Shown one piece after another: positions 115 through 34,285 of a DNA stretch of 34,802 nucleotides (positions within the stretch are counted from its first letter, which is position 1; each line of letters starts with the position of its first letter). The DNA lies in the IMG/VR virus record IMGVR_UViG_3300033149_001862, positions 1 through 34,802 of that record. One strand, given 5' to 3'. The notes under the pieces were generated by a model, which did no database searches, had not been told where the DNA came from, and was given only the letters and a program-made list of their open reading frames with translations. This stretch comes from a virus. A program made the translations under genes and the position numbers.

Positions 115-410
115 CAAATGAAATCGAACCGCTGCCAACTGGTAGAAGATACCCCTTCCCACTTGCCATTCCTTACACGTATAAATGGATATGCAGAACC
201 ATCACCCCTGGCCCATCCAGATACTCTATATGTGACTCCGGAAATAACAGGTATATTTTGTCCAGTTCCTGGGTTGGCAACACCGTTATAAGCTATTCTT
301 AATACTTGGTTTCCATCAAACACGTTTCCTAGTTCTTTCGTGACGGTGCCACTTAGCCCAGACTGCCAACTCCCCGTCCGTAGACCCCCTTGGTCCTGAT
401 GAAACCCCGG
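1..410 (-). CDS. Tail fibre, carbohydrate-binding-like segment (continues across contig end; no start of its own)
   Basis: On the minus strand this frame is open from a TAG at 411-413 down through base 1. After joining the contig ends it continues into 34802-34286. The translation reads like a beta-sandwich carbohydrate-binding module (WQSGLSGTVTKE, then NVFDGNQVLRIAYNG, then TYRVSGWARGDGSAYPFIRV, then YTEWDNISVREV). There is no ATG before the conserved part. The only start-type codon near its beginning is a GTG at 321-323 without a Shine-Dalgarno. It lies in the -1 frame relative to the LamG gene 353-1087, which ends just where this module begins. I infer that the two are parts of one fibre separated by a frameshift or a small deletion. 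A genuine separate gene with an unusual start is less likely. Confidence 0.6.
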
Positions 411-1087
411 CTAGGCCACCGCATGCTCGATAGCTCGGCGTAGAGTTCGGCGTGCTCGGATGCGGTTAATTTTCTATTCACGATCAGGGCGGCGGTGAGG
501 GTGGAATCGAGGTTTTTCGAGCCTGCATACATATTGCCTATCACTATGGGTGCGTCATCGCTGGTTATGGTTGACGTGTCATTGAACAGGCCAATGCTTA
601 TGCCATCTGCAAAGCCCTCGCATTTTTCACCGGACTTCATGTTTATGGCAATATATTTCTTTCCGGTAATATCAGTTGTCACGCTTCTGCCAGCAGTTCC
701 ATCGTACAGAAATATCCTTAGCGGAACAGTGAAAAAATACATGTCGTAGTTAGTACCACCAGCATCCCTCTTGCTGATTAGCCGATTATCTCTCCCTTGG
801 CTCAAAAACTCCCCGAACACCACCAGCGTCCCCTCCGTCAACTGGAGTTCCGGCGAATCGGACACGGTGATCTTGCTAGTCGAGGCCGGGAATCGGACAC
901 CCCGGTTGCCGGCGAAATGGACATTGGTGGGCGTGCCGTCGTTGCCGTTGCCCGAGAAGTCGTGGAACGAGCGGGAGGCATAAAAATGAGCGAGAACCAG
1001 CGCCCCCTCGGCCTTGAGGTCGTCGATGATACCAGCCCGCGCCGGCCAGGCACAGGCCACCAGCAATACCAGCGCAAGCCGTCTCAT
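353..1087 (-). CDS. LamG/concanavalin A-like lectin-fold protein with signal peptide (tail-fibre N-terminal part)
   Basis: The protein has 244 aa. Residues 1-18 are a clear Sec-type signal peptide: RR at the start, a hydrophobic core LALVLLVACAW, and a PARA-G cleavage site. Residues 35-230 look like a LamG/laminin-G jelly roll: FHDFSGNGNDGTP is the typical entry strand, and FADGISIGLFND and the LTASEHAELYAEL ending are typical of phage LamG proteins. Such domains usually bind carbohydrate on virion surfaces. AGGAG lies 7 bases before the ATG. It follows the 120-aa gene by 10 bases. The frame stops at 353 just as a second binding module begins in the -1 frame. A signal peptide on a presumed fibre is odd; see the findings. 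Confidence 0.8.
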   Translation of the reverse strand: MRRLALVLLVACAWPARAGIIDDLKAEGALVLAHFYASRSFHDFSGNGNDGTPTNVHFAGNRGVRFPASTSKITVSDSPELQLTEGTLVVFGEFLSQGRDNRLISKRDAGGTNYDMYFFTVPLRIFLYDGTAGRSVTTDITGKKYIAINMKSGEKCEGFADGISIGLFNDTSTITSDDAPIVIGNMYAGSKNLDSTLTAALIVNRKLTASEHAELYAELSSMRWPSRGFIRTKGVYGRGVGSLG

Positions 1088-1097
1088 GTCCGCGCTC

Positions 1098-1460
1098 CTA
1101 CTCGATTTCGCCGGGCTCGGGCTCGGCCGGGTGCAGTTCCCGGAGCCGCCTGTCCCGGGCCTGCTTGATCATCTTCACTTGGTCCAGCGAGCAGCCGAAC
1201 TCGCGGGCGATTCCCAGCAGCCCGTTGTGGGCCTCCGGGTCGCGCAGCGCGCCGACGATCTGCCGCACCTGCTGCGGAGTCAACTCGGGCGGCCGCGACG
1301 GTCTCTCCGGCCGGACAGCGGGCGTCAGCTCCTGCTCGCTCATGCTGTCCACGGTGTTGTCCACCACTTCCCGGTCTCCCTTTTGGGCCATCAACAGTCC
1401 TGCCCCGCCCACGGCCATGCCCAGCGCGGCGGCCATTACCAGTGCGATTCGCGTGTTCAT
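1098..1460 (-). CDS. Small exported or membrane-anchored protein with a helix-turn-helix-like C-terminus
   Basis: The protein has 120 aa. I chose the ATG at 1460 because AGGAGG sits 7 bases upstream; an upstream in-frame start at 1493 has no such support. Residues 5-25 form a hydrophobic segment (IALVMAAALGMAVGGAGLLM) that could be a signal peptide or an anchor. After a Pro-rich linker (PERPSRPPELTP), residues about 75-105 (LLGIAREFGCSLDQVKMI) resemble a helix-turn-helix. The function is unknown. It lies in a run of four genes that all begin with export-like segments. Confidence 0.75.
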   Translation of the reverse strand: MNTRIALVMAAALGMAVGGAGLLMAQKGDREVVDNTVDSMSEQELTPAVRPERPSRPPELTPQQVRQIVGALRDPEAHNGLLGIAREFGCSLDQVKMIKQARDRRLRELHPAEPEPGEIE

Positions 1461-1474
1461 CTCCGTTCCTCCTG

Positions 1475-2074
1475 TCAGTCGATCTCGTACCACGAGCCCA
1501 GGTAGGTCAACGTGGCACCGTCCTCGTTGGACGTGATCTTGTAGTAGTAGGTCTCCGACTGTTTCAGCACCATCTCGTTTTCGCGGCTGTCGGCTACTTC
1601 CGTGGCCGACGCAAACTTGCCACCAGCGCCTATGGCGATCTCCAACAGCTTCGTGGCGCTCCCGGTGTCAACGGTCGTCGGGTTCTTCTTCACCGTCAAC
1701 GCGGCGGTGTTCGTGCTCTGCCGGTTGCTGTTCACCGGGTCCACTGAAGTGCCCCCGGTGTACGATGCCCCTTCCCACAGCTCCAACGTGTACGCCTTAT
1801 TCGAACTGTAGGCGAACTCCATATGCACCTCGCCCGTGGCCGGCGTGTCGATCACAAACTCCGTGGTATCCCCGTTGTTCAGCGCGTCGTAGCCGCCGAC
1901 GAAGTAGTGGTCGCCATCATGGATATGGTGGTGCACCTCCTGAATGGAGACAACCGACTGGCTGTTCTGGTCCACTCTGACCCGCCACCACTTCGAGCCG
2001 TCCCAGCCAAACACACCTATCCCGGCAAGCAACACTCCGGCCAGGCCCAGGAATATCGCGCTACGACGGGGCAT
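1475..2074 (-). CDS. Phage structural protein, HHxIHxGxHYF family, with an N-terminal hydrophobic leader
   Basis: The protein has 199 aa. Its start overlaps the previous stop (TGATG), so translation is probably coupled. From residue 37 it reads SQSVVSIQEVHHHIHDGDHY, a pattern I recall from a common phage virion protein family (usually HHEIHSGSHY) that is predicted to be all beta. Here it carries an extra N-terminal hydrophobic stretch (residues 5-23, SAIFLGLAGVLLAGIGVFGW) after PRR, resembling a signal anchor. It is probably a virion or tail-accessory protein; the exact role is unknown. Confidence 0.75.
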   Translation of the reverse strand: MPRRSAIFLGLAGVLLAGIGVFGWDGSKWWRVRVDQNSQSVVSIQEVHHHIHDGDHYFVGGYDALNNGDTTEFVIDTPATGEVHMEFAYSSNKAYTLELWEGASYTGGTSVDPVNSNRQSTNTAALTVKKNPTTVDTGSATKLLEIAIGAGGKFASATEVADSRENEMVLKQSETYYYKITSNEDGATLTYLGSWYEID

Positions 2075-2637
2075 CAGTACAGCCTCTTGGCGAAGATCGT
2101 CCAGTCGGCGTCATCGGCACCGCTGGTGTCCGCCACCACCTTGATGCGCACGTACTTGCACTGGCCGAGCATGTGGTTGCTGTCGAACAGCGCGGCGCTG
2201 GCCGTCCAGTTGGCGGCCCCGTACACGGTATTCGAGACGTCGTGGTAGTTGCAGCTTGCCGGAGCGGTGCCATCGTCTTGTAACGTGCACTCGACCGTCA
2301 CGGTCACGGTGCCCGAACCGCCGTTGAGCACCAGCTGCAAACCCAGCGCCTTGTACCCGTCCATGTCCAGGTAGTAGTAGTACGTTCCGTCCGCCCCGTT
2401 GGTGACGTCGGCCGGGGTGGTCTCCACATGGTGCTCGCTCAGGGGGTCGACCTCGCTCACGCTGGTTGCCCCGGTGGTGGAGCTGTAGCCGGCCATCTCA
2501 ACGCGCCCATCCGTGGTTGTGCGCACAACCCGCATGTGCTCGTTGCTGTCCTGCCCCTGGATCACGGTGCCGGCGATTGCCAGACCGCCCAGCAGCAGGA
2601 ATCCGATTATCGCCAGCCAGGTTTTTGTGGTTCTCAT
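2074..2637 (-). CDS. Putative virion-associated beta protein with signal-anchor leader
   Basis: The protein has 187 aa. Two ATGs compete. The one at 2643 overlaps the preceding stop as ATGA but lies only 2 bases after AGGAGG. The one at 2637 is 8 bases away, so I chose 2637. Residues 7-22 (WLAIIGFLLLGGLAIAG) form a hydrophobic leader. The rest is Thr/Gly/Tyr-rich with alternating strands (GTYYYYLDMDGYKALGLQLV, SGTVTVTVECTL) and a C-terminal part resembling a beta-sandwich (KYVRIKVVADTSG). It lies directly after the largest ejection protein and before another leader-bearing gene. I do not recognise the family. Confidence 0.7.
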   Translation of the reverse strand: MRTTKTWLAIIGFLLLGGLAIAGTVIQGQDSNEHMRVVRTTTDGRVEMAGYSSTTGATSVSEVDPLSEHHVETTPADVTNGADGTYYYYLDMDGYKALGLQLVLNGGSGTVTVTVECTLQDDGTAPASCNYHDVSNTVYGAANWTASAALFDSNHMLGQCKYVRIKVVADTSGADDADWTIFAKRLY

Positions 2638-2639
2638 GT

Positions 2640-5456
2640 TCATGTCCTCCTTGCTTCCAGTGCCTGTGTTCCGGTCAGTAACTTCTCGGGTTCGATTTTT
2701 GCAACCGCCGCGGCAACAGGTGTCGGCGGCGTGGTCACGCTTTCCGGCGACGGCATGCTCATCTGCGCCTGCTGCATTGAGGCAACAAATTCGGGCGCCA
2801 TCGTTGGGTCAACAGGGATGCCCAGCAGCAACGATAGTTGCACGCGCTGCTGGTAGTTCATGGTGTCCTGTATTTTGTCCATGTTGGCGACCACCTCGTT
2901 GACAAGCCGCTCGTACATGCGCGGGTACACCTCGCGCAGCGCCTCGACCGCCTCATGGGTCAACCGGCCGGCCGCCAGATCGTCAAGCACGCTGGCCGGA
3001 TTGTCAACCGCCCGCACGTAGCGCGCCCACTTCGACAGTTCCGACGGGGACGGTCGCCACTTCCGGGCAAGTATGCTGTGCGGCTGTGGGTTCTTGGGTG
3101 CCTTTTCGAGCAAAAACCGCGTGGCGCCCATCACCTTCTGGTTCACCGCCAGAGCAACACGGGGCGCGGCGTTGGCGATCTGCTTGTTGGCTTCCTCCAG
3201 CCGTTCGGCAGTGCGGTTGATTTGCTGGTGGATGCGCTGCAACTCTCCTAGCTTGCGCGTGTACCACTTTTGCCGCTGCTCATCGTTGCCATGCAGGATA
3301 ACCGCGCCCGGGCCGACAAGTCGCTTTGCCCGGGTGGTCCCGCGCTTCGCCTGGTCGATAAACACGCGCAGCTTGCCGCCTAGCCGGGCCTCGAATTCCC
3401 CGGAGATGCGGCGCAGGGTTGCCAGCATGCGCATGGTGGTGCCCGGGCGCAGGATTGCGCTCGCGGCGCCGCCTATCAGCATTCCTGGCAGACCGGCAAC
3501 CAGCCCGCCAGCCAGGGCTCCGGTGCCCATGGTGATGCCGGCCCGAGCGGTTGCCTTGTCGATGCGCTCCAGGGCGGCCCGGGCTTGCATGATCTCGCCG
3601 GTGCGATCCAGGTTTTCTTCAAATGCCTTCTTTGCCTGCCGGTACTTTTTCAGCGCCTCGGCAGCCCCGGGCATGTCGTACTGACGGGCCATTTCCTCCA
3701 GCAGTTCTTCCCGACGACGAAGCTGGGTGAGCACATAGTCCTTGTCCAGGTGTACCTTGGCTTCGTCGCCCAGGTCGCGCACAAACTGCCGCCAGCCAGC
3801 CGGATCGTGGGTATAGACGTACTGGCCTTCGCGGGCGGACACGGCGCCCCAGTCCTTCGATGCCACCCGGCGGCGGAAGCGGTAGCCCAGCTTTTGCGCC
3901 TCGCGCTCTAGGTAGGCCGACCACTTCCTGTTGACCGCCTGCTGCATGGTGGCGGCCTTCTCGCCCCACAGGGTTGCGTCCTCCAGAGTGTGCTGCACAT
4001 TTTTGTACAGGCCGCTCAGTACGTCCATTGTCTCGGCCATCTCGGGCAGGCGGTTGTAGCTGTACGCCTTGCTCATGCGGTCTCGCAGGTGGCCCAGAGT
4101 GCGCTTGAAGTCGTCGAGCATGTTGAACGCCTCGCCGATGGCCTGCCGGTCGCCGCTGGCAAATGCACCCTCGGCCTTCTCTAGTTTCCGGCGGGCACCC
4201 TTCAGGTAGTCGCGCAGACGCTTCAACGGCCCCTGGAACTCGTATGTCCCACGTCCGGCGGCGATCATGTCGTCCACCTGGCGTTGCAGACCGGTCAACA
4301 GGCCGTCGTCCGCCAACACCGCGTTGAACGCCGTTGCACCGTCCCCCTCGCTGGCGATGTCGCGCATGACCGACGCCTTGTGCTTGCCCGTCGCCTTGAA
4401 AATGATGTCATCAGCGGCATCGTCCAGCGTGTTCTGGATGTCGGCCATCTTGAACGCAAACTGGTCAATCGTCTCATCCGGCGCAACGGCATCCATGAGT
4501 GCCTGCCGACGGCGTAGCAACTGCTCGAAGGCTTCCTTTTCCCCGGTGAGTTTACCAGCCGTTTTGATATACGCCTCGCCCAGGGGATTGATTTTTCCTT
4601 CGACCTTGGTTAGTGCCTCGGCGGCCATGTCCGCGGCCTTGCCCCTGGCTCCCGCCATCTCGGCCAGTCGCTTTGCCACGGCCTTTGTCGAGCGGCCGGC
4701 GGTGCGAAGCGCGGAGCCCACGACCTCGGCGCCGCCAGTCAGTGCGCCGCCCGCAATGCCGCCCACCAGGGCGCCCATTCCGACGTGTCCTAGCAGATCC
4801 TCGGCCGTGCCCTCGATGTCTCCTAGGGCGGCCTCGGACACGTACTGCCCGGCCCCGTACAGTGCGCCCTCCACGGCTGCCCCGGTGGCGGCCGGCAATG
4901 CACGGGCAGCCACTCGAGCTGCCAGTCCCCGCCCGGCGGCCTCGCCAACCACCCGGGCAACGCCCCGCTCAGCCGCCCGGCCCACAGCGGCAGCGGCACG
5001 GGGAGCTACGCCCACACGGCCCATCAGGCTCCCAGGGCCGGCCAACAGTGACCCGGCGATGGCGGCGATTTCCCCGGCGGTTGATGCGTCCGGATTGGCC
5101 TCCTTGAGCCCGCTCAGTGTCTCCCGGTCTACCAGTCCCAGGTCTTGCAGTGCGACGTCGGACAGCCCGAAGGTCAGGCCCCGGAGTCCGCCCAGCAGTG
5201 CCGCTGTGCCCTCGCTGTCGCCGTACTTTTCCTGCACCTCGCGTGCGCGGCGCATCTGCTCGGTTTCGTACTGCCAGCCCTCACCGGCCAGCTTGACGGC
5301 ATCGGCGGGGTCCATTTCGTAAACCGCGCCTTCCTGGTTGACCATGCGTAGCTTGCTGCCCCTGGGTAAGCCGTACTGCCCGGAGGCCAGGGCGTCAAGC
5401 ACCTGGTCATCTGGCACTTCGATGGGTGTACCGTCTGGCCGGTAAAGGGTCGCCAT
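2640..5456 (-). CDS. Large internal virion / DNA-ejection protein (T7 gp16 / P22 gp16 position)
   Basis: The protein has 938 aa and is the third and largest of three ejection-type proteins. Its start immediately follows the upstream stop (TAGATG), with a purine-rich AAGGAAGG upstream. Residues about 85-100 (LLGGLRGLTFGLSDVALQDL) and the following Ala/Gly-rich stretch to about residue 260 contain several possible membrane-inserting helices. A second such block is near residues 640-670 (GALAGGLVAGLPGMLIGGAA). Between them are long charged helices with coiled-coil character. Podovirus ejection proteins of this size leave the capsid and form a channel through the cell envelope. No lytic transglycosylase motif is visible. 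The placement and composition support the call; no single diagnostic domain does. Confidence 0.75.
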   Translation of the reverse strand: MATLYRPDGTPIEVPDDQVLDALASGQYGLPRGSKLRMVNQEGAVYEMDPADAVKLAGEGWQYETEQMRRAREVQEKYGDSEGTAALLGGLRGLTFGLSDVALQDLGLVDRETLSGLKEANPDASTAGEIAAIAGSLLAGPGSLMGRVGVAPRAAAAVGRAAERGVARVVGEAAGRGLAARVAARALPAATGAAVEGALYGAGQYVSEAALGDIEGTAEDLLGHVGMGALVGGIAGGALTGGAEVVGSALRTAGRSTKAVAKRLAEMAGARGKAADMAAEALTKVEGKINPLGEAYIKTAGKLTGEKEAFEQLLRRRQALMDAVAPDETIDQFAFKMADIQNTLDDAADDIIFKATGKHKASVMRDIASEGDGATAFNAVLADDGLLTGLQRQVDDMIAAGRGTYEFQGPLKRLRDYLKGARRKLEKAEGAFASGDRQAIGEAFNMLDDFKRTLGHLRDRMSKAYSYNRLPEMAETMDVLSGLYKNVQHTLEDATLWGEKAATMQQAVNRKWSAYLEREAQKLGYRFRRRVASKDWGAVSAREGQYVYTHDPAGWRQFVRDLGDEAKVHLDKDYVLTQLRRREELLEEMARQYDMPGAAEALKKYRQAKKAFEENLDRTGEIMQARAALERIDKATARAGITMGTGALAGGLVAGLPGMLIGGAASAILRPGTTMRMLATLRRISGEFEARLGGKLRVFIDQAKRGTTRAKRLVGPGAVILHGNDEQRQKWYTRKLGELQRIHQQINRTAERLEEANKQIANAAPRVALAVNQKVMGATRFLLEKAPKNPQPHSILARKWRPSPSELSKWARYVRAVDNPASVLDDLAAGRLTHEAVEALREVYPRMYERLVNEVVANMDKIQDTMNYQQRVQLSLLLGIPVDPTMAPEFVASMQQAQMSMPSPESVTTPPTPVAAAVAKIEPEKLLTGTQALEARRT

Positions 5457-7004
5457 CTACTTGCTCACCTTCCTTGCGCCGCCGGGGGCCTGGCCGCTCA
5501 AGGTGTAGCCGTAGGGCATGAGCCCCTGCAATGTGGCCCGGGTGATGAGTTCCCGGACCTTCTTGAGCCGGGGCAGCACACCGATCCAGTCTTTCGGGTC
5601 CGCGGGCAAGCCCATCATCTCGATTTCTCCCGGGTCGATGCGGGCGCCGGTTTCGTCCAGCTTGCGCATCACCGACTTGAGCCGGTTGAAAGTGGCCATG
5701 AGTTCCTCCCGCTTCTTGGGTGACACCCGGGCGCCCAGCTTGAACGTTTCCCGCTGCTTGATCAGGTCGTTCAGGATGTCATAGGTCATGCCGTAATACT
5801 GGCGCATTTGTTGCGCCTTCTTCTTGTCGTCCTTGGTAGGCATGTACTTCTGTGGCTGTGCGATTTTCAACCCGGGCGGCTCCAGGCTCTGTGACAGCAC
5901 CTTGGCCTTGGCCTGCATGGCTCGCTGCTGCTGCTGGGTAAGCGCCTGCCGAGCGCGAAATTCCTGTGCCCGCTGCCGGGCGCCGACCTCTGCCTGTGCG
6001 CCGCTCAGTGCGGCCGTACCCGCCTGCAAGGACAACTGAGCCTCGTTCTGTTGCAGTTGGTTTTCCAACTCGGCGGCCCGCTGCTCGGCGGCGGCCGCGA
6101 ACTGACCGGCCTTGGCCTGCTCGACCGGGCTTTTGTGTTCCAGGCCGATAACCTGCGCCTGCTTGGCGTACCGATCCCAGGCCATCGCCTCGGCGGCAAG
6201 CTGCTGACTTCGCTCATCGGCGAATAGTTGCCGCGCAAGCTGTACCTCGTTCTGTGCCGCGCCGACCATCTGCCTGCGCTTTGCCATTTCCGCCCGCTGG
6301 GCCTCCAGATCGCGCTGGATGGCCCCGTTGACTATCGCAAGCGCGGTGTTCGGGGTTCTGCTCAGCGCCGAGCCCATCGCGCCGAACGCAACAGCCAGGG
6401 CGGCCAAGGCCGATTTGCCGCCCGCCAGTGCGCGATCCGGGTCCAGGTGAAACTCGCCCAACTTCTGTTTGGCCGCCTGGTATTCGGCCATTTTGCTCTC
6501 CACCTGCTGCCGGGCGGTGTCTACACGCTGCTGGTATTCCTGGCGCACCTGGTCAATGGCGGCCAGGCCGGTCTTGAGTGCACCAGCCTGTTCGGCCGCC
6601 ATCCGCCCCACGGCCTCGGCGTGCTGCTGGGCAGCCTGCTTGACCTGCTCGGTTGTGCCGCGGATGCGCTGCATGCCCGCCTGGGTGGCCTGCTGAAACT
6701 GTCCGGGCAACGCCTCCAGCGTCTTGCGGGCGCGCGTCAGCGGGGCCACGCTGGCCGGGGCGAAGGTCGGAAAGGAGGGTTGCTGGAGTTGTAAACCCTG
6801 CTTCTGCTGCGCCCCGAGAAGGCCCGCGGTTGGGAACGTCAACGACTCGGGGGTGACTGGCTCAGGCAGGCTAAACGTGGGGATCATTGTCTCCGGATCA
6901 ACTGGCGTTACTGATGCCAGCGGCGCTTCTGCTGGCGCTTCGGTGCCAGCAGTGCCCGGCTGCTGCAACTCCGCGCCGAGCCATCTTCCTTGAAGCAGTC
7001 CCAT
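5457..7004 (-). CDS. Internal virion / DNA-ejection protein, coiled-coil rich
   Basis: The protein has 515 aa from the ATG at 7004, which is 7 bases after AAGGAGG. A GTG at 7010 is in frame but too close to that site. After a Pro-rich N-terminus (residues 15-90), the middle (about 90-370) is almost entirely Ala/Gln/Glu helix with coiled-coil character and a short Ala-rich hydrophobic patch (ALAALAVAFGAMGSAL). The C-terminus is more globular (MTYDILNDLIKQRETFKLGA, then GEIEMMGLPADPKDW). Its position between the small and the large ejection proteins matches T7 gp15 or P22 gp20. The evidence is gene order and composition, not a diagnostic motif. Confidence 0.7.
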   Translation of the reverse strand: MGLLQGRWLGAELQQPGTAGTEAPAEAPLASVTPVDPETMIPTFSLPEPVTPESLTFPTAGLLGAQQKQGLQLQQPSFPTFAPASVAPLTRARKTLEALPGQFQQATQAGMQRIRGTTEQVKQAAQQHAEAVGRMAAEQAGALKTGLAAIDQVRQEYQQRVDTARQQVESKMAEYQAAKQKLGEFHLDPDRALAGGKSALAALAVAFGAMGSALSRTPNTALAIVNGAIQRDLEAQRAEMAKRRQMVGAAQNEVQLARQLFADERSQQLAAEAMAWDRYAKQAQVIGLEHKSPVEQAKAGQFAAAAEQRAAELENQLQQNEAQLSLQAGTAALSGAQAEVGARQRAQEFRARQALTQQQQRAMQAKAKVLSQSLEPPGLKIAQPQKYMPTKDDKKKAQQMRQYYGMTYDILNDLIKQRETFKLGARVSPKKREELMATFNRLKSVMRKLDETGARIDPGEIEMMGLPADPKDWIGVLPRLKKVRELITRATLQGLMPYGYTLSGQAPGGARKVSK

Positions 7005-7016
7005 CGCCACACCTCC

Positions 7017-7796
7017 TTACAGCAAGCCTCCAAGCAAAGAGCCCAGGCCGGACATCATTGCCCCCTGGTAGGTCATGGCATTCTGAGACCCGGTCTGCCA
7101 TGCCTGTTGTGCAAGACCCGCCCGGGCCTGCGCGTCCTGCTGCATCATCTGCTCGTACATGATTTGCGCCTGCCGGTCGGCCTCGGCAGCAGACAACCCC
7201 ATGCCAGTGAAGGCACTCACCAGCCGGTCACGCAGCGCCTGTGCTTGCAGTGCCAACTGTGCCTGTGACTGCGCCAGTCCGATATCCTGGGCACGTGCGC
7301 CGCCGATCATGCCCGCGTATGCCTGTTGTGCCCTGGCCTGTTCAGCGGCACGCATGGCCGCAGTCTGGGCGATTCCCTGTTGGGAGAGCTGCGACTGTGC
7401 GGCCATGGCCTGTCGCTGCGCCAGTGCCGGGCTGACGCCAGCCTGGGCGGCCATTCCACCCACCTGCCGGCGAGCGGTATCCAGCCCGGCCCGCATTTGC
7501 ATTTCAGCGGCGCTGGCAGCCTGCCCGGTGGCCTGCGCCCGCAACAGGTCGGCGGCCTCCTGCTGGCGCTTGCGCCACTCGGCTTGCTGGGCGGTGTCGA
7601 TCTCGCCGGTGGCTCGCGGCGTCCCCCACAACTGCTGCATGCCCTGCCAGAGAAACGGCTGCCACTGGCGCTGGCTCATGAGATTGCCGAACGCGCCCTG
7701 GCGCACGTTATACCCCTGGTACTTGGGCGCATCACTGTCACCCATGGCGCCACGAACCAGAGGGCCAATCACAGGTATTGCATCCCACCAAGCCAT
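7017..7796 (-). CDS. Small internal virion / DNA-ejection protein
   Basis: The protein has 259 aa and begins MAWWDAIPVIGPLVRG, a start typical of small podovirus internal proteins (T7 gp14 or P22 gp7 position). Residues about 60-245 are Ala/Gln-dominated helix (AAEMQMRAGLDTARRQVGGM and on). The protein ends in a Gly/Leu tail (MMSGLGSLLGGLL) that could insert in a membrane. GAGAGGTGAAAC precedes the ATG. It is the first of three ejection-type genes. It has the shortest length and lies directly after the tail hub gene, as in P22-like and T7-like gene orders. Confidence 0.7.
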   Translation of the reverse strand: MAWWDAIPVIGPLVRGAMGDSDAPKYQGYNVRQGAFGNLMSQRQWQPFLWQGMQQLWGTPRATGEIDTAQQAEWRKRQQEAADLLRAQATGQAASAAEMQMRAGLDTARRQVGGMAAQAGVSPALAQRQAMAAQSQLSQQGIAQTAAMRAAEQARAQQAYAGMIGGARAQDIGLAQSQAQLALQAQALRDRLVSAFTGMGLSAAEADRQAQIMYEQMMQQDAQARAGLAQQAWQTGSQNAMTYQGAMMSGLGSLLGGLL

Positions 7797-7806: not shown

Positions 7807-10800
7807 TCATCCGTAAGAGTTTGCGTCCTTCAGCTTCATTCTGGTGCCCAGTGTACCGATATCCAGCTCGATGCGCGACAGGCGCCAGTCCAGAGCCGCA
7901 CCGGATATGTCGTGCAACCGTAGTTTGATCGCCTGACACCGCTGCCGGGCGGGCATGACGCGAAAGCTGGACTGAGACGTGGTGCCGGACACGCCGGAGA
8001 AGTTCACCGTCTGGGTCGCCACGCTCTCGTAGTCATAGAATATCTCCAGCCGATAGTTGGAGTGTGGCAGCTTGCCCACCAGGTATATCCACCAGACACG
8101 CTGATACGCCGACAGCTCGCCCAGGTTGATCCACGGCGTCTCAATCAGCGCCTGATAGGCGCCCCCGGGGTCCTGGTATATCGACATCGGACCGGCGTAC
8201 CGCTCGCGCATCCACTGGAGTGTACCCGGGCTGCCAGTGGCCAGATAGTACACCCGGGTATCGTCTCCGTCACGTAGCGACGCAGCCAGGTGCGACAGTG
8301 TACCGGACGACAGGGAGACACTCCACCGATACCAGTGATTTACCGAGTAGTCCCACACCAGTATTTCGCCGTTGGCGGTCACCATGTACACACGCTTTGC
8401 CCGCGGCTCCGTGATGCCCGCGATAATCGCTTCATCCTGGTAGCCCTCCACCGGGCCACCGATGTATTTCAGCCCCGCCGGACTCGCCAGATGAAAGCCG
8501 TTGCGCGACCGGAAAAGCACGCCCATTGGTGTTTCAACCACGACCTCGGTTGACTCGATACCCAGCGAGTCGGTCAGCACGCGGATGGGCGGAAATTGTC
8601 CAACTCCGGCATTGTTCGGGCCGCCGACTGCCTGCCTGGAGTACACGGCGCCGCCCTTGAACACCACCACCGACTCGCCGGCTGCGGCGAGCGCGTAAAT
8701 ATCGCCCCGCTGGTATGTCTCCTGCACAAGGGCGTCGTTCCAGTCGACCGACACGCCGGCGCTGATCTCCTTTGACGGCAGAATCTTCTCTGGCAGTTCA
8801 CTGGACACGGCAAAAAGCCGATTGCACGCCTGCGCCAGCTTGGTACACGCGAAGTTGCAGGCGTTTTCCAGTATCCCGCCGGTGGTATACAGTACCTCGT
8901 TGAGCTGGATGTCACTGTCGCTGTTGTTGTCGTCGATGGTCACCGTGGCGGCCTGTAGATCGTTATCCTCCCCGTCCACGTCGATTTTGTAGTGCACCGT
9001 GCCCGCGTTTGTGGTGCGGTACAGGTGTATTTTTAGCTCCCGCTTGTCGTAGTCGGTGCCGGCCACCTGGTCGACTTGCCACTTGCTGCCAGTCTGGTAT
9101 GTCTGCACGATGATCCGCAGCCTGTAGGGGCCGCCGGATGACGATACGGTGTGACTCACCGGCTGTGACGGCTGCGAGCGATGCACGCGGCCGACGCGAT
9201 CCACCCATTCGTATACCGCCCGGTATACCACCGTCTCGCCGCCGGAGAATACACCGCTACCGTCTGCGATGTCGCTCACGCTGTCGATTTTCGGAGGCTC
9301 ATAAAACAGCGCCTCTTGCAGCGTGCCGTCAAACAGGTAAAGCTGTCCGCCGCCGATTATCAACCCGTCTGCAACCTCCCGGGCGGGCGCGGGCGCCGGG
9401 TCCAGGTCGATGTCCACCGAGTAGGCGGCGCTTTCGGTAAGCGCCCCGCCCTGGGCGGTAGACGACAGGACGCGGGTACGCTTCGACAGTGCCAACAGCA
9501 CCCTATCCTCGGCCGATGACACCACCGGCCTGCCCTTGCGGCTCAGCATTGCCAGCCGGGTAACCGCGTCATCCTTGCAAACCACCGCCTCGGTAAGCCA
9601 GCGGTAGTAGGCGTCATTATGCAGGTCGAACCGGCCCATAAGCCAGGTGGATTGCTGGAACCCGTCCAGAGCATCCTCGAACGAGGCAATAATCACTCGG
9701 CTGTACTCGCCGAACGTAAACGCCTGACTGACCAGCCAGTGGTTGTAAACCACCCCATTTGTAGACGATCCGGTGCCGTCATAGGCAATCACCTGGCGAA
9801 AGATGCTGGGATGGGTGCCACTGGTGGTCTGAACATAAACATCTAGCTCGCACTTTCCAGCCGTAGCGGTTAGTTTCGGGTTGTGAGATATGGCAATCGC
9901 GGCGGCAACGCTGCCCATGCCGGTAATCGTGGTTGGTGCCGTTACCTGTGTAAGCGATTCGTCGTACACGGCCATCCTGACGTTTAGCGCCGTGCCGTCG
10001 CACCAGCCGAATACCAGCAACCAGCGGCTGTTGGGCTGGTCGTAAACCCGATTGACCGTCAGCGCCACCGGGGTGGTCTCGCCAGTGATGCTCACGGTTC
10101 TGCGCAGCGTGCCGGCCCCGTCGTAGCCGCGGATCTCCAGGTTGCCGGTCGAGTTGTCGCGCCAGAACACCACGGAAGAATTGCCGTGAGTCGAATCCTC
10201 GTAGTAGCACGAATCGTGCGCGTTGAGCTGGGCCGACGTGATCGTGGTTACAAAAGTCCGCTGCGCGCTGCTGGCGTCCCACACTTCCAGATACAGGCTT
10301 TTGGTGGCACCCGATGACGCCGAGTAGCTATGGGCATGAGTCGTGGTGACCGCGTGAATCTGCGGCTGATATCCGCCGTTCAGAAAATGCCGATCCAGGT
10401 ACACGTTGCCCGTGTCGGCGTCGTAGATGGTAATCATGCCCCGCAGGGCGCCATGGTAATCTTCTTCACTGTGTACCACCAACCTGCGGCCGCCGACTTC
10501 CGCGATGTCGGCGTATGACAACTGGCGCCGGGCAGACACAACCTGCCGGTGCTTGAGTGAGCAAGGAAAGTACATGCCCGCCCGATGCCAGATGTCGGTT
10601 GTCCCGAGTTTTAGCGCGTACAGGTACCAGGCGCCGCCGGTTTTCTTGGCCGCCATAAGCACTTGGTCACGATACGACCACAGGGCATGCAGTTTTTCCA
10701 GCGAGCCGCCTTCGTTCGGCGTCAGGTCCACCTCTTGCAGCGGATAGCGCACGCGCGCCGAGCCCGTTTCGTCCAGGATTATGTTTTGCAGGTCCGCCAT

Positions 10801-10887
10801 GTGGGGCAGGGCAATCTGCTTCGGGTCGCTCCTGGTGTCGATGCCCGCCACCAGGGGGATGCTGATTTTTTGCTTTTGCAGTGGCAT
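7807..10887 (-). CDS. P22 gp10-like tail hub / stabilisation protein
   Basis: The protein has 1026 aa. The start is the ATG at 10887, which overlaps the upstream stop as TGATG; an open extension to 11004 has no start support and covers the previous gene. The N-terminus (KISIPLVAGIDTRSDPKQIA, then MADLQNIILDETGSARVRYP) matches the pattern of podovirus head-closure/stabilisation proteins related to P22 gp10. The body is mostly beta with repeated Tyr/Trp/Gly-rich strands that suggest propeller blades (for example VYMVTANGEILVWDYSVNHW). In P22 the protein extends the portal-gp4 channel and seats the tail spike and needle. Its place right after the adaptor genes agrees. Confidence 0.75.
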   Translation of the reverse strand: MPLQKQKISIPLVAGIDTRSDPKQIALPHMADLQNIILDETGSARVRYPLQEVDLTPNEGGSLEKLHALWSYRDQVLMAAKKTGGAWYLYALKLGTTDIWHRAGMYFPCSLKHRQVVSARRQLSYADIAEVGGRRLVVHSEEDYHGALRGMITIYDADTGNVYLDRHFLNGGYQPQIHAVTTTHAHSYSASSGATKSLYLEVWDASSAQRTFVTTITSAQLNAHDSCYYEDSTHGNSSVVFWRDNSTGNLEIRGYDGAGTLRRTVSITGETTPVALTVNRVYDQPNSRWLLVFGWCDGTALNVRMAVYDESLTQVTAPTTITGMGSVAAAIAISHNPKLTATAGKCELDVYVQTTSGTHPSIFRQVIAYDGTGSSTNGVVYNHWLVSQAFTFGEYSRVIIASFEDALDGFQQSTWLMGRFDLHNDAYYRWLTEAVVCKDDAVTRLAMLSRKGRPVVSSAEDRVLLALSKRTRVLSSTAQGGALTESAAYSVDIDLDPAPAPAREVADGLIIGGGQLYLFDGTLQEALFYEPPKIDSVSDIADGSGVFSGGETVVYRAVYEWVDRVGRVHRSQPSQPVSHTVSSSGGPYRLRIIVQTYQTGSKWQVDQVAGTDYDKRELKIHLYRTTNAGTVHYKIDVDGEDNDLQAATVTIDDNNSDSDIQLNEVLYTTGGILENACNFACTKLAQACNRLFAVSSELPEKILPSKEISAGVSVDWNDALVQETYQRGDIYALAAAGESVVVFKGGAVYSRQAVGGPNNAGVGQFPPIRVLTDSLGIESTEVVVETPMGVLFRSRNGFHLASPAGLKYIGGPVEGYQDEAIIAGITEPRAKRVYMVTANGEILVWDYSVNHWYRWSVSLSSGTLSHLAASLRDGDDTRVYYLATGSPGTLQWMRERYAGPMSIYQDPGGAYQALIETPWINLGELSAYQRVWWIYLVGKLPHSNYRLEIFYDYESVATQTVNFSGVSGTTSQSSFRVMPARQRCQAIKLRLHDISGAALDWRLSRIELDIGTLGTRMKLKDANSYG

Positions 10888-11189
10888 CAGAATACCCACA
10901 GGCTGACCGTCGCGCCAGCAGATGTGTTCAGGTAAAGATACCTGTCGTCCGGGTCCTGGGCTTCGTACACCGTGGCCGCGGCGTTGATGCGCACGATGAT
11001 CCAACCCTGGGGAGTTCTGCCAAGTCCGTGTGCCACGTAGTTTGTCGCTGCGCGTGACAACTCCTGGTCTGTCAACAGCACGCCGTCAACCAGATCACAA
11101 TGCCGATAGGGCAGCAGGTGGGATTCCAGGCGATCCTGGATTTCTCTCAGTCCCTCGTCCGGCAGGCGCTCGAACTCGGCGGGCTTCAT
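10887..11189 (-). CDS. Small conserved podovirus head-tail protein
   Basis: The protein has 100 aa. A helical N-terminus (ERLPDEGLREIQDRLESHLL) is followed by a C-terminus ending LYLNTSAGATVSLWVF, an ending I recall from small proteins in podovirus genomes near the tail-hub gene. GAGGG lies 9 bases before the ATG. It sits between the adaptor and the gp10-like gene and overlaps the latter by one base. It is probably a minor head-tail or fibre-attachment protein; the biochemical role is not known to me. Confidence 0.7.
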   Translation of the reverse strand: MKPAEFERLPDEGLREIQDRLESHLLPYRHCDLVDGVLLTDQELSRAATNYVAHGLGRTPQGWIIVRINAAATVYEAQDPDDRYLYLNTSAGATVSLWVF

Positions 11190-11192: not shown

Positions 11193-11888
11193 TCACACCC
11201 TCGGCAGCGGGAAGTTACGACGACGGCGGTATCTGCCCGACACGTCCGGCGTAACGCGCGGGCGTGATGCGTCCCTGTTGGACGCCGAGCTGATTATGTG
11301 CTGCCGTGCACGCTCCCGCATCATCGTGGCCGGCCTGGTGTCCCGCTCCTGCCTGGTCAACACGTACTCGGCAATGTGGGCGACAACGAACGACTCCCAG
11401 CCGCGCGGGATTTCCGGGCTGATTTCGTCCTCCCAGTGAGTGAGATCCTTGAACTGCCTGACGTACCACATCTCGACATCCCTGTCTGATGCTGGCAGCG
11501 GGTGCCAGACAATCCTGTTGCCGCGCACTTGGTAGCGCGGATAGGAATCGGTCTCGGTGGTTTCCGTGCCCGACAGCTCCTCGAACCCCCACGGGTCGAT
11601 CTCGATCCGCTGACTGCCCTCTATCAGGTACAGGTGTTGCAGTTTGAAGAAGTCGTCCGGCAGCGTGGTGTATCTCTCGCCCGAGCGCATCTTGACTGTG
11701 TCGTCCGTGGCAAGAAATCCCTCCCACGCCTCAACCAGTAGGTCGCGCAGTTCGGCGAGTCCTTCGTTTGCTACCGCCTGTAGTTCTCCGGCCGAGTAGG
11801 CGTTGCCCGTCGCGGTATCGTCACCAAAGGGGATATCCGCGAGCATGAGCGCCCGAGCGCATATGGTGTACAGGGTCACTCGGGCCAT
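11193..11888 (-). CDS. Head-to-tail adaptor (P22 gp4 / T7 gp11-like)
   Basis: The protein has 231 aa. The N-terminal helices (VTLYTICARALMLADIPFGD) and a middle segment LPDDFFKLQHLYLIEG resemble podovirus adaptor proteins that bind under the portal and form the first tail ring. WHPLPASDRDVEMWYVRQF and the following ISPEIPRGWESFVVAHIAEY fit that family, in which a compact helical core assembles as a dodecamer. The C-terminus is Arg-rich (SGRYRRRRNFPLPRV). GAGGTGAG precedes the ATG. Gene order (capsid, small protein, adaptor, tail hub) supports the call. Confidence 0.75.
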   Translation of the reverse strand: MARVTLYTICARALMLADIPFGDDTATGNAYSAGELQAVANEGLAELRDLLVEAWEGFLATDDTVKMRSGERYTTLPDDFFKLQHLYLIEGSQRIEIDPWGFEELSGTETTETDSYPRYQVRGNRIVWHPLPASDRDVEMWYVRQFKDLTHWEDEISPEIPRGWESFVVAHIAEYVLTRQERDTRPATMMRERARQHIISSASNRDASRPRVTPDVSGRYRRRRNFPLPRV

Positions 11889-12351: not shown

Positions 12352-13596
12352 TCAGGCCAGCTTGATCCGCACGATGCTGGCGGGGTTCTGGGTGGCGAGC
12401 TGCGGGTATCCGCCGATTCGCGCCTCCACAGAGTTGTCGTTGTAGACGCGCAGCACACGCTGTCCGTCGTCGTCGATGATCGCCGGGTACTCACCCATGC
12501 CCATGAACACCAGGGCGTCCGGGTCAAACATCCAGGCGACATCGATCGGGCAGTACGGATGAGACAGCACGTCGATTTCCCCTTCGTCGCCGTAGACCTT
12601 CACCGACTTGAAACCGATGTCCGCCAGTGGCCCCTCCCTGCCCTGGGCGGGTACGAGGCCGTATTCCTTCTTCGAGCCGAGCAGGTTGACCAGCTTGCGG
12701 TAGTTGACGTTGCTCATGAAGCAGATACGCGGCAACGCGCCGTTCATGGCACCTTCGCTCTGCGCGTTGATCAGCGCTTCGTCCAGGTTTTCGTTGTTGG
12801 TGGTCGCGTCGTAGCGGGTGCCTGCCAGGCGCTGCACGTCCACCGACCGATCCACGCCGAAGAAGCTGTCGCCGGCGCTGGGCGCGGTGGCCGGGCACCA
12901 GGCTTCCAGACCGTAGATCTTCTTCCGATCGTTGGCGGCGGTGAAGTCGCCTTGCGGGGCCAGGTAGTCGTTGGCGGTCAGGCCGGTGATCTGGCTGGTC
13001 CAGTTGCTGTCCGACTCCAGAGTACCGGCGTCCCGGTCGATGGCGGTGATGGTCGCACTGCCCGACCGCGGATTCGCGCCACTGCCGGTGGTAGCCACCA
13101 CCTCCATGCCGACCTCGAACAGGTGGGCATCGGCTGCGTTTGCCAGCGTCAGGGTCGTGGTTGACACGCTTGCCACCTGTGCCAGCAGGCCGTGGCCGTC
13201 ACGGAATAAGTCGCGCTCGGTGTCCTTCAGGATGGAATCGTAGGCGCCATCGATCTCGCCCTCCAGGGCCTTCAGGAAGGCGACTTCGTTGTTGCGGGTG
13301 GCGGCGATCATCTTGCCGGTCACCCGGGCCAGCGAGTAGTTCTCCTGGCAGGTGACCTCGAACGCCCGGCGAGTGCCGGACAGGCTGGCGGCCAGGCTCT
13401 GTGCGGTGGAGAACGTCGCCGACCGAGCCTGCACGCTCGCCACGTCCACGGGGATCTTCTCCTGGTCACCGCCGGCGCCGAAGTCCTTTCGCAGGATCAT
13501 GAAGAACTTGTACTTGCGCCAGCCGAGCTTCAAAATGCGGTCGAAGTTGTACCGCTCTTTCAACATTGCGCTGGTTGCGCTCCAATCAAGGGCCAT
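12352..13596 (-). CDS. Major capsid protein
   Basis: The protein has 414 aa. It follows the scaffold gene and precedes adaptor genes, the standard place for the coat protein. The N-terminus (SATSAMLKERYNFDRILKLG) and a Met-rich central segment (ALPRICFMSNVNYRKLVNLL) resemble coat proteins of the HK97 fold that use a separate scaffold. About residues 150-260 form an inserted beta-rich domain (HLFEVGMEVVATTGSG, then GSATITAIDRDAGTLE). The ending QLATQNPASIVRIKLA is typical of this class. GGAGG lies 9 bases before the ATG. A 105-bp untranslated gap (13597-13701) precedes the gene and contains a short hairpin (AGCGC-GTAG-GCGCT, about 13674-13687). Confidence 0.85.
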   Translation of the reverse strand: MALDWSATSAMLKERYNFDRILKLGWRKYKFFMILRKDFGAGGDQEKIPVDVASVQARSATFSTAQSLAASLSGTRRAFEVTCQENYSLARVTGKMIAATRNNEVAFLKALEGEIDGAYDSILKDTERDLFRDGHGLLAQVASVSTTTLTLANAADAHLFEVGMEVVATTGSGANPRSGSATITAIDRDAGTLESDSNWTSQITGLTANDYLAPQGDFTAANDRKKIYGLEAWCPATAPSAGDSFFGVDRSVDVQRLAGTRYDATTNNENLDEALINAQSEGAMNGALPRICFMSNVNYRKLVNLLGSKKEYGLVPAQGREGPLADIGFKSVKVYGDEGEIDVLSHPYCPIDVAWMFDPDALVFMGMGEYPAIIDDDGQRVLRVYNDNSVEARIGGYPQLATQNPASIVRIKLA

Positions 13597-14586: not shown

Positions 14587-16398
14587 CTATTGCATGCCCG
14601 GCGGCATCTGGCCGGGGATGGGTTGCTGCTGCGGCTGCTGTTGGGCCATCTGCATGGTCATCTGTTGCTGCTGCACCTCGCGGATCATCGAGTCCACGGA
14701 TAGCAGGTACTGACGGAAGCCCTCCAAGATGTGCTCTGGCGCGTTGTTGTTGCGCGCTCGCAGGTATGCCGCCAGTACAAGCTGCTTGGCCGTCTGCAAG
14801 TCCAGGAACGACTCGGGCTGCACCGGCTTGCCTGCCTGTAGCTGCTCGATGTCGTACTGCACGGCCTGCACGCTGGCGGTCATCATGCTCATGGCGTCGT
14901 CGACGTCCGGGTGGTCGATCTTCGACGCCAGCAACGGTGCCGCCTGCGGAAAAATGCCCAACATCTCCTGGATGGTGCTCAGCCGACCGGCAGGCTCCCG
15001 GGGAAGTAGCGACGCCGGGCGAATCTGCACCATGTACCGACTGCGGTCACGGTCGAGGTCGCTCAACAGCACTTCCGCGAGTCCCTTTCCGCGCGGCACC
15101 AGCAACTTGACATTCTCGCCGCCCACGGCTTCCACCAGGTCGGTCGCAGCGTCAAGAATGCGCTCCGCGACCTCGACCCAGAAGTCATCCCAATCCTGGC
15201 CGATGTCCAGAAACCGCTGGCTCTCACTGTCCTTGTATTGGCGTAAGGCCTCGCCACTCGCCAAGCTGCCGGGCTTGCGCGAGTAGGCAAACAGTTGCGA
15301 GATGCCGAGAGCTTCGAATATGGCTTCCTTTTTCTCCCCGCGCTCGCTGAATAGTACCTGTGGCGGCCCCGGGTCCGGATTGAACACCGGGGGCGTGCCG
15401 GTGTACTCGACCACCAAAAACCCGCCCTCGTCGTTGCCCAGGTCGGTGATGTTTATCTTGCTGCCCTTCTCGGCGAACACGCGGGTTGTGCTTGCGTTGA
15501 GCAGTCGGCCGATGCGTCGGTCAAGGAAGGTCACCTGCTTCTGCTGCTGCACCACATCCTCGATGGCGCCCATGCCATGCCAGCCGAGGGTGCGCTTTTT
15601 CCACCGCCAGATGACGAACGGGAACGCCTCGCGCTCCCAGTCATCGACAAACAGCGTGCCCGCGGTGGTGCTGATTACGTGCAGGCCGTCTCCCGCGCCC
15701 GGCGCGCTCGGCAGGTGCCATGCCTCGAACACGGACACGGGCTCGTCGATCTGCCAACTGCCACCCTTCAGCTCGCGGTGGAGCTGCGCGTTGTTCACCG
15801 CATGGGCATACTTCTTTCCCTTCCACCGGGCAGCCAACTCCGAGCGGGAAACCACGCGGGTCTGAAACATACTCTTGGGGGCACCGTCCTTGCCATCCAG
15901 GTAATCAACCAGCAGTTCCGACGCCAGCACCCGGCGCAACCGGATTCGCTTTGCCATCGGGTCGGCGTAGACCTTCATGGCCGCCACATCCCAGATGCAG
16001 CCGTCAAGGAATATCTGCCGGCCGAGTGCATAGCCCTTTTGGTCGGCGATTACCCCCTCGACCAGCAGTGTCTGCTGCTTGGCCTTCTTTTGCAGTTCGT
16101 AGTCGCCGGCGTTTGTGAGCACGATGGGCCGCGGTCGACTGCTGGCAATCTTGGCAACAATCGAGTCGATGGCCTGTTTGAGCACGTTCTCCTTGCTGTC
16201 CTCATCGTCGATGATATCCGTCTGTGATTCGGCCCAACTGAGCCCATCCAGGCTTGGGATGTGCCGCCCCTCGTACAGGCTCAGGTAGTACGCATATCGC
16301 TGCCGACGCTCCTGCTGTTGGTTTTCGATAGCCCGCACGGCCTCGGTGATCTCACCGTGCAGCAGTGTCCTGTCTGCCTCCCACCAGCGGCCGGCCAT
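14587..16398 (-). CDS. Portal protein
   Basis: The protein has 603 aa from the ATG at 16398, which overlaps the preceding stop (TGATG); a GTG one codon upstream is also possible. Portal-like features are an N-terminal helical part (YYLSLYEGRHIPSLDG), a wing region with strands (DVAAMKVYADPMAKRIRLRR), PFVIWRWKKRTLGWHGMGAI before a long helix (IEDVVQQQKQVTFLDRRIGR), and a Gln/Met/Pro-rich tail at the end. The length and the position between terminase and scaffold are standard. The portal is the dodecameric DNA entry and exit vertex and the dock for the terminase. Confidence 0.85.
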   Translation of the reverse strand: MAGRWWEADRTLLHGEITEAVRAIENQQQERRQRYAYYLSLYEGRHIPSLDGLSWAESQTDIIDDEDSKENVLKQAIDSIVAKIASSRPRPIVLTNAGDYELQKKAKQQTLLVEGVIADQKGYALGRQIFLDGCIWDVAAMKVYADPMAKRIRLRRVLASELLVDYLDGKDGAPKSMFQTRVVSRSELAARWKGKKYAHAVNNAQLHRELKGGSWQIDEPVSVFEAWHLPSAPGAGDGLHVISTTAGTLFVDDWEREAFPFVIWRWKKRTLGWHGMGAIEDVVQQQKQVTFLDRRIGRLLNASTTRVFAEKGSKINITDLGNDEGGFLVVEYTGTPPVFNPDPGPPQVLFSERGEKKEAIFEALGISQLFAYSRKPGSLASGEALRQYKDSESQRFLDIGQDWDDFWVEVAERILDAATDLVEAVGGENVKLLVPRGKGLAEVLLSDLDRDRSRYMVQIRPASLLPREPAGRLSTIQEMLGIFPQAAPLLASKIDHPDVDDAMSMMTASVQAVQYDIEQLQAGKPVQPESFLDLQTAKQLVLAAYLRARNNNAPEHILEGFRQYLLSVDSMIREVQQQQMTMQMAQQQPQQQPIPGQMPPGMQ

Positions 16399-16850
16399 CA
16401 CTCAGCCCCCAGGATGACGACGGTACAGTACGCACCGTCTACCGCGTGCATGCTGCCCACGGACAGGTCCGCCGTCTCGTCAACGTCCGCCAAGCACACC
16501 CAGCCGCCGGGTGGCACAGTGATGGTATCGGCGGCCACGGTGCCGTACTTGGCCGTGAACTCCACGGCAATGCGGTTGGTGTCATCGTGGTTGATTACCA
16601 CCACCTGGCGGACTGTGCTCAGGGTGTTTGCGGCGTAGACCACCTCCTTGCTGCTGCTGCTGTTGGGCGCTTCGATGCGCGACAGCACGCGAGCGTCTTT
16701 CATGCCCGTGCTGTCCTGGTATCCCTCGCCGTCCGCCTGTGGCACCGTGTACTTGTCACACCGGTAATCGGTCGGCGCGAAGTCGCTGTTGGTTGCCACC
16801 TCGACAACCGGGTATGTCCGGATGTACCGGCTGCTGCCTAGTTCGGCCAT
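16398..16850 (-). CDS. Hypothetical beta-rich structural protein between terminase and portal
   Basis: The protein has 150 aa. The ATG has GGAGGA 8 bases upstream, and the first 13 bases overlap the end of the terminase gene. The sequence has alternating beta strands (STVRQVVVINHDDTNRIAVE; TITVPPGGWVCLADVDE), reminiscent of small beta-barrel or carbohydrate-module folds. It has no membrane segment or enzyme motif. Its place suggests a minor head protein. I do not recognise the family. Confidence 0.7.
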   Translation of the reverse strand: MAELGSSRYIRTYPVVEVATNSDFAPTDYRCDKYTVPQADGEGYQDSTGMKDARVLSRIEAPNSSSSKEVVYAANTLSTVRQVVVINHDDTNRIAVEFTAKYGTVAADTITVPPGGWVCLADVDETADLSVGSMHAVDGAYCTVVILGAE

Positions 16851-31604: not shown

Positions 31605-32012
31605 TCACCGAATTTGCATACCCACCACGACACCGGCGCCGAGAACCACGCCGATTGCTACTCCCAGCGCCCCCCATATCCACCTATGCCGGCGGTATTC
31701 TTCAGCTTTTTCTTCCGCCACCGCCACCTTCCCCCGCTCTACCGCCAGGTCCAGGCCGCCCAGCTGCCGGCACTGCTCCAGGTCGGCCCGACAGAGCCCG
31801 GCGGCCCGGTAGAGTTCGGCGCAGCCGGTCAGCGCGGTGATCAGCGCCGGACGCTCGCACGGGGCGTACATGCCCTGCACCTGGCAGCGGCCAAGCAGTG
31901 CCTCCACGTCGGCCAGCCGGGCCTCGAGGTCGGGCTGTGGTCGGCTGGCGGCCGGCCGCACATGGGCGCAGGCGGACAGCAACAGGGCGAGCACCAGGGC
32001 CAGCCTACTCAT
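31605..32012 (-). CDS. Probable unimolecular spanin (lipoprotein with C-terminal membrane segment)
   Basis: The protein has 135 aa. MSRLALVLALLLSACAH is a lipoprotein signal with lipobox LSAC (Cys at about residue 15). The C-terminal 25 residues (RWIWGALGVAIGVVLGAGVV plus VGMQIR) are a transmembrane segment. A protein anchored in the outer membrane by lipid and in the inner membrane by a helix is the design of the T1 gp11 u-spanin, which fuses the two membranes at the end of lysis in Gram-negative hosts. It has six periplasmic Cys. It is the last gene of the lysis cluster. Confidence 0.75.
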   Translation of the reverse strand: MSRLALVLALLLSACAHVRPAASRPQPDLEARLADVEALLGRCQVQGMYAPCERPALITALTGCAELYRAAGLCRADLEQCRQLGGLDLAVERGKVAVAEEKAEEYRRHRWIWGALGVAIGVVLGAGVVVGMQIR

Positions 32013-32149: not shown

Positions 32150-32401
32150 TCACGGTTCGGGCCCCACCACGGGCAGGCCGAGCAACCACCACCGACGGCG
32201 CTTGGCCCAGTCGAACAGTCTGATATACCAGGGCTTTTCCATTTTCAATATCTCCTTGATCACCACCCGGACGAAGCTGGGCGACCAGCCGTGCAGCAGC
32301 TCTTCGTCGAACACCACTGCCGTGTAGTCGTCCTGTCCCCAGGTGGTCGCGTGCCAGTCGGCCCGCAGGGGGCGGGGCAGGTCACAGACGGCGCCGGTCA
32401 T
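32150..32401 (-). CDS. Hypothetical protein in the lysis cluster
   Basis: The protein has 83 aa. The ATG at 32401 is in an ATGA overlap with the zinc-ribbon gene and has AAGGGGGA upstream. The product has RADWHATTWGQDDYTAVVFD and VRVVIKEILKMEKPWYIRLF, then a basic Trp-rich end (WAKRRRWWLLGLPVV). It could be membrane-associated near its C-terminus. The frame ends at 32150 while a +1 frame stays open into the charged helix at 32005-32133. Confidence 0.6.
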   Translation of the reverse strand: MTGAVCDLPRPLRADWHATTWGQDDYTAVVFDEELLHGWSPSFVRVVIKEILKMEKPWYIRLFDWAKRRRWWLLGLPVVGPEP

Positions 32402-32601
32402 GGTTCCCCCTTGTGCCCGCACCAGGGACACCGGCCGGGCACGTGCGGCCGCCCGCACTCGGGACAGGTTTCGAGCGGCAAATACCCGGGGTCCGGGCGG
32501 ATGGGGTAGCGGCAGATCGAGCACGGGTAGCCGACCTGCTGGATGGTCCCGCACTTGGGGCAGGTGGTGGTTCTGTGCTGTTTACGCAAGCCAGCCATCA
32601 T
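32398..32601 (-). CDS. Zinc-ribbon protein
   Basis: The protein has 67 aa with four C-x2-C pairs (CPKCG, CSIC, CPECG, CPWCG), enough for two zinc ribbons. It begins with a double Met (MMAGLRKQHRT). The start overlaps the 35-aa frame by 20 bases and the end overlaps the next gene as ATGA. Its role in a lysis cluster is unclear. Confidence 0.65.
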   Translation of the reverse strand: MMAGLRKQHRTTTCPKCGTIQQVGYPCSICRYPIRPDPGYLPLETCPECGRPHVPGRCPWCGHKGEP

Positions 32602-34284: not shown

Positions 34285-34285
34285 G

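Follow-up and report, generated by a model that had tools for sequence, protein, structure and literature searches.

A phage virion-surface gene block apparently re-routed out of the cytoplasm

The window analysed here, that is, the whole stretch of 34,802 bases, is a complete, circularly permuted virus record. Bases 1-114 recur exactly, as a direct repeat, at 34689-34802, and this 114-base terminal repeat identifies the record as a complete circular assembly. The late genes lie on the minus strand, as do all the window features given below, and profile support was obtained for a large terminase (16838-18268), a portal (14587-16401), a capsid protein (12352-13596) and an adaptor-like protein (11193-11888). 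These are followed by an open reading frame for a large protein (7807-11004) and by the genes of three large, putative ejection proteins (7017-7796, 5457-7010 and 2640-5456), which are named from their position and have no convincing family match in profile searches. The last of the three, a protein of 938 aa without a leader, is encoded directly upstream of, and in the same operon as, four consecutive genes at 353-2637 for the proteins p187, p199, p120 and LamG, which we refer to as the cassette; an endolysin gene (a peptidase, phrog_894; 33177-33629) comes after them. No tail-fibre gene was recognised outside the cassette in the profile searches, which also returned no tape-measure match in the window and left its capsid and portal in families of their own, and the large terminase, used as a query, found no relative in IMG/VR. 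A further gene at 31605-32012 encodes, as judged by eye, a lipobox (LLSAC), then a coiled segment and then a C-terminal membrane helix. This layout resembles that of a unimolecular spanin and suggests that the host has an outer membrane.

Each of the four cassette proteins begins with a predicted Sec-type N-terminal leader. The leader test used here is a crude one, which asks for a basic n-region and an uncharged 12-residue window of high hydropathy; all four proteins pass it, with hydropathies of 2.4-2.7 over the 12 residues and at least one basic residue ahead of them. Among the controls, the test called textbook Sec signals in 7/7 cases and 5/82 proteins of T7, lambda and P22, namely three Rz proteins, Lom and one helicase. 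The Rz proteins and Lom are known to be membrane or exported proteins, and the helicase is a false call. Not one virion protein of these three phages was called. None of the window's remaining main genes for structure or replication was called either, so that four leaders in a row are far beyond chance. An earlier note on this DNA, made from the sequence alone, had described four successive proteins with a basic stretch and a hydrophobic run, and had regarded such leaders as unusual for virion proteins; the test and its controls bear out both statements. Finally, every leader start either has a plausible ribosome-binding site or overlaps the preceding gene by ATGA/TGATG, so that the leaders are translated from within one tightly coupled late operon.

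The p187 gene (2074-2637, stop included; 187 aa) encodes the leader MRTTKTWLAIIGFLLLGGLAIA at 2572-2637, with predicted cleavage before GT, and an alternative ATG at 2643, which overlaps the stop of the gene for the 938-aa ejection protein, would extend the product to 189 aa. The C-terminus of p187 is confidently predicted to be a β-sandwich (jelly-roll), as the AlphaFold model has a mean pLDDT of 81.6 overall and of about 97 in this domain (residues about 68-187). In the PDB, the folds that match it best are jelly rolls of a generic kind, at low TM values, among them a capsid turret chain of HFTV1; an unnamed viral model, A0A516LVJ1, is 49% identical to p187. The family alignment of p187 has 24 members. 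In p199 (1475-2074), the leader MPRRSAIFLGLAGVLLAGIGVFG at 2006-2074, with possible cleavage before WD, precedes an HHHIHDGDH motif and a β-rich domain; residues 92-197 match the phrog_5335 profile with E=5e-6, and the protein has no cysteines. The p120 gene (1098-1460) encodes the leader MNTRIALVMAAALGMAVGGAGLLMA at 1386-1460, with possible cleavage before QK, and a small helical, HTH-like protein. The fold search with p120 gave no significant match, just HTH-like folds, and we therefore do not claim a DNA-binding role. In the LamG protein (353-1087, 244 aa), the signal peptide MRRLALVLLVACAWPARA spans 1034-1087, with predicted cleavage before GI. The A-x-A cleavage sites are clear in p187 (AIA) and LamG (ARA), the latter as the earlier note had it, and weak in p120 (LMA) and p199 (VFG). 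On this basis the p187 and LamG leaders look like cleavable signal peptides, and those of p199 (VFG/W) and p120 (LMA/Q) could be either cleaved or retained as anchors.

Two further records carry the cassette with leaders. The first, L001, is a 61.8-kb viral contig (whole record, G001) with p187, p199, p120 and LamG in the window's order and leaders on all four. Identity to the window is 93% for its p199, which likewise has the leader, 95% for p120 and 76% for LamG, and its p187 homologue carries a signal peptide that is different from the window's and equally clear. The second, L024, is a complete circular record (whole record, G002; 42 kb with a 144-base terminal repeat) that encodes p187, p120 and two LamG proteins in this order, with leaders on all and without p199. 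In both records the cassette comes after capsid genes, whereas in the window it comes after the putative ejection proteins. The head, portal and tail genes differ among the three phages (a podovirus-like window, T4-type head genes, a long-tailed phage): the virion genes of G001 include a phrog_138 head protein, a head maturation protease and a tape measure, and those of G002 another capsid protein and a tape measure. The three have some replication and accessory genes in common, at about 30-55% identity, an overlap suggestive of a shared host range. A small zinc-ribbon-like protein (CPKCG...CSIC...CPECG...CPWCG; window 32398-32601) is also common to the window and L001 (near 10526-10695), and is encoded downstream of the cassette in both. 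G001 further encodes a second p187-domain protein (L055:16950-17543), which has its own leader and all of the leader-type cysteines described below, far from the structural block.

Comparison with these relatives shows that the window's LamG gene is interrupted. Intact copies (L024, 587 aa) consist of LamG1, a carbohydrate-binding-like part and LamG2. Relative to L001 and L024, the window has a frameshift near 355, and a short stretch is missing near 34.2 kb in the second half of the gene, so that just LamG1, the front half, is joined to the leader. The CBM-like middle part lies in another frame at 1-323 and runs on across the circular junction into the LamG2 part (34089-34802), which is 90% identical in DNA to L001, contains the frame-breaking deletion and ends in the 114 bases that repeat 1-114. 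The window protein scores 18.2 bits (E=0.0029) against Laminin_G_3, below the gathering cut-off of 27.6 bits, and its L001 counterpart scores 43.1 bits (E=6e-11), above that cut-off. The LamG protein appears to contain a concanavalin A-like lectin domain. A tree of LamG proteins did not resolve their branching. Both in the window and in G002 the ends of the circular contig fall within the LamG gene, perhaps owing to population variation at this point.

The leaders themselves are maintained. Between the window and L001 the changes within them are mostly silent, over few sites. For the p199 leader dN is 0.08 and dS 0.58, and for the LamG leader the values are 0.04 and 0.11, again from few sites in each case; the p120 leader shows no amino-acid change over its 25 codons. 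With dN lower than dS, the leaders are under purifying selection.

The cassette is a version of a widespread module, which looks different in other phages. Profiles and scans yielded about 23 further uncultured-phage loci with p187, p120 or LamG homologues, and no leader was found on any p187, p120 or LamG orthologue in them. By the leader test, the module bears leaders throughout or not at all: 12/12 module proteins in the three genomes have a leader, as against 0/61 elsewhere, although with just three leader-bearing genomes that have genes in common these counts are not independent trials. The leaderless homologues start at about the mature N-terminus, near residue 33 of the window's p120 and near residue 19 of its LamG protein, and the leaders are therefore additions ahead of conserved proteins. 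The organisation is otherwise alike: homologous genes for p187, p120 and LamG are arranged in one order, in the window within its virion structural block and in the leaderless module (L004, L020, L016, L018, L023, L039, L044 and others) near capsid genes. In L004, a capsid protein is followed by a p187 homologue, two other proteins, a p120 homologue and two LamG proteins, the p187 homologue being 59% identical to the window's over the C-terminal domain; the near-identical L002 runs on, as judged by eye, into neck- and tail-like genes. The order p187, p120, LamG recurs in L020, L018, L023, L039 and L044, and leaderless p120 homologues adjoin LamG genes in many phages. A tblastn search of the phage collection gave no matches for p187, p120 and LamG and one match for p199, and relatives of p199 were found in L001 and in Vibrio phage 172P1 and nowhere else, L024 included.

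Two candidate homologues were rejected. A 163-aa protein of L004 has just an HHI...H motif in common with p199, and a protein of L054, found with the L024 p120, matches within the leader only. The latter (L054:13092-13469, minus strand) bears a leader and a tail-like 'QTGPVVLTIP' stretch, and, given this sequence, exported virion-like proteins may be commoner than the p187/p120/LamG module. In L033, two predicted exported, cysteine-rich proteins of 171 aa (1754-2269) and 975 aa (2266-5193), the larger of them LamG-like by eye, lie beside a leaderless p187/LamG module, and a strict all-or-none leader rule for the whole neighbourhood is weakened by this locus.

The p187 proteins with and without leaders also differ in their cysteines. 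The leader-bearing copies have 2.68 cysteines per 100 aa, as compared to 0.79 in the leaderless ones (p=1.2e-5). A cysteine that immediately follows the conserved E of 'VEx..QDDGTAPASC' is present in 4/4 leader-bearing and 0/21 leaderless copies (p=8e-5), and two further cysteine columns are exclusive to leader-bearing copies, at 3/4 each; the fourth leader-bearing p187 in this column count is the G001 paralogue encoded away from the structural block. Given the small number of genomes, these counts, too, are not independent of one another. For LamG and p120 the corresponding difference in cysteines is not significant. In the p187-domain tree the window protein clusters with leaderless ones, such as that of L004, and those of L001 and L024 cluster with others; a single clade of leader-bearing p187s, as expected of one origin, was rejected (AU p=0.0007). 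The leader-bearing p187s thus reflect at least two changes of leader state, or recombination swaps, and the leader-specific cysteine moved along with the leader. The earlier note had treated relatives that start downstream of the hydrophobic stretch as telling against the leaders. Most relatives do start there; the three phages nevertheless keep leaders on every member of the module, and these 12/12 leaders, the purifying selection and the gain of cysteines in p187 together mean that the leaderless relatives do not dissolve the finding.

The position of the leaderless module and its domain types suggest that it is a virion surface appendage, perhaps a glycan-binding head or tail fibre. As the relatives in most other phages have no leader, the block in the leader-bearing phages seems to have been redirected to a place outside the cytoplasm. 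Export of the cassette proteins is probable from their sequences, and we consider it likely, with some reservation, that a former virion module has been converted to an exported one. The reservation concerns p199 and p120, which are without a textbook A-x-A site, the absence of cysteine in p199 and of a significant cysteine gain in LamG and p120, and the exported p187 paralogue of G001, whose place outside the structural block is no less compatible with an envelope role.

We propose that a Sec leader was added ahead of each otherwise intact protein of an adhesin module (p187, p199, p120 and LamG), and that the cassette would be made late, together with the virion genes. Its proteins would cross the inner membrane, presumably with cleavage of the leaders, and fold in the oxidising periplasm, where p187 would form its added disulfides. 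There they would probably assemble, and virions could then acquire the adhesin from the periplasm once lysis has opened the inner membrane. We tentatively favour this lysis-time pick-up over a cassette that masks the envelope. It would explain why the genes are kept in the late virion operon, why the proteins are exported jointly and why there is no other recognisable fibre gene. Against it stands that no route is known by which tailed virions could receive proteins from the periplasm ahead of lysis. The fuller proposal, in which a Sec-exported, disulfide-bonded, periplasm-assembled adhesin complex joins the leaving virions and the trick has spread among podovirus-, myovirus- and siphovirus-like phages, is more speculative.

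The alternative to be taken most seriously is that the exported complex was exapted to act on the infected cell or its debris rather than on virions. It would mask a surface glycan or receptor, and in this way block superinfection and keep progeny off the debris after lysis, much as the earlier note had envisaged with its envelope display or superinfection coat. We regard this as possible, though the lesser prospect. The signal peptides and the cysteine gain of p187 fit it, as do the predicted exported paralogue outside the G001 structural block and, in L033, the two cysteine-rich, predicted exported proteins encoded separately from the leaderless module next to them; it needs no new assembly route, and phage-coded exported proteins are known in principle from Lom of lambda and from Porphyromonas phages (PMC10367356). 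However, ATGA/TGATG overlaps tie the cassette genes to virion genes and they do not form a separate accessory unit, the window would be left without a recognisable fibre gene, and a Sec signal by itself takes a protein no further than the periplasm, short of the outer surface.

The remaining explanations fare less well. The leaders might be uncleaved anchors on virion proteins, inserting into membranes during assembly or DNA ejection. The weak cleavage sites of p199 and p120 and the position of the window's cassette after putative ejection protein genes are consistent with this; but the A-x-A sites of p187 and LamG and the p187 cysteine gain argue otherwise, the cassette of L001 and L024 follows capsid rather than ejection genes, and leaderless homologues are common. 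We therefore regard anchoring as improbable, and insertion during ejection, one of the meanings offered by the earlier note, is the least supported of those meanings. A surface lectin displayed in a lysogenic or pseudolysogenic state, aiding host attachment or biofilm to the benefit of the host, is in keeping with the predicted exported lectin-type domains; but inspection of the window's frames brought no recognisable integrase to light, and the genes belong to a late operon, which makes this reading more doubtful still. Finally, it is very unlikely that the leaders are artefacts of translation or annotation with true starts downstream, as the segment's absence from most homologues might suggest: the starts of the leaders have ribosome-binding sites or overlap a preceding stop, the amino acids are conserved with dS in excess of dN, and 12/12 module genes in three genomes have the leader.

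The accepted view is that tailed phages put their virions together entirely in the cytoplasm. If the proposal is true, either some virion parts are finished outside it, or virion adhesins can be turned wholesale into exported weapons or shields for the infected cell. As every member of the module has a leader in three phages with different virion genes, and leaderless counterparts and matching cysteine gains are at hand, this question can be tested directly. The module also lends itself to a natural comparison between leader-bearing and leaderless versions, and its cysteines offer a signature by which further exported phage proteins could be sought.

Signal peptides are already known in phage-coded proteins, among them Lom-like exported envelope proteins, endolysins and spanins. 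Lom of lambda resembles the cassette in being a late-region gene product with a Sec leader that the leader test calls; it is, however, a single protein, without homology to the cassette and not from a virion module. The coat proteins pIII and pVIII of the filamentous phage M13 are virion proteins made with signal peptides, as the cassette proteins would be, but M13 is extruded through the membrane and its virion is of an unrelated type. A complete tailed-phage virion module with Sec leaders had no precedent in the literature searched, which covers the field in part. In Porphyromonas phages, several Sec-signal proteins of unassigned function have been described, and the signals predicted on capsid proteins were assumed to be cleaved off by the prohead protease (PMC10367356). 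The capsid turret of Haloferax tailed virus 1 (HFTV1) protrudes from the capsid and consists of a base protein and an outer binding head (PDB 8QPG; PMC12494034). One turret chain is matched by the p187 fold (E=0.0056; TM 0.50 by target and 0.35 by query), a likeness that is not significant and too weak for homology; HFTV1 is an archaeal virus, and the text of the paper mentions no signal peptides (PMC12494034). The closest parallel for p199 is PODOV061v2_0015 of Vibrio phage 172P1 (Zobellviridae), which has the same phrog_5335 domain and, as in the window, is encoded after two large genes at the ejection-protein position. Unlike the window's p199, it is without a leader, in agreement with the earlier note's description of p199 as a member of a phage protein family to which a leader has been added.
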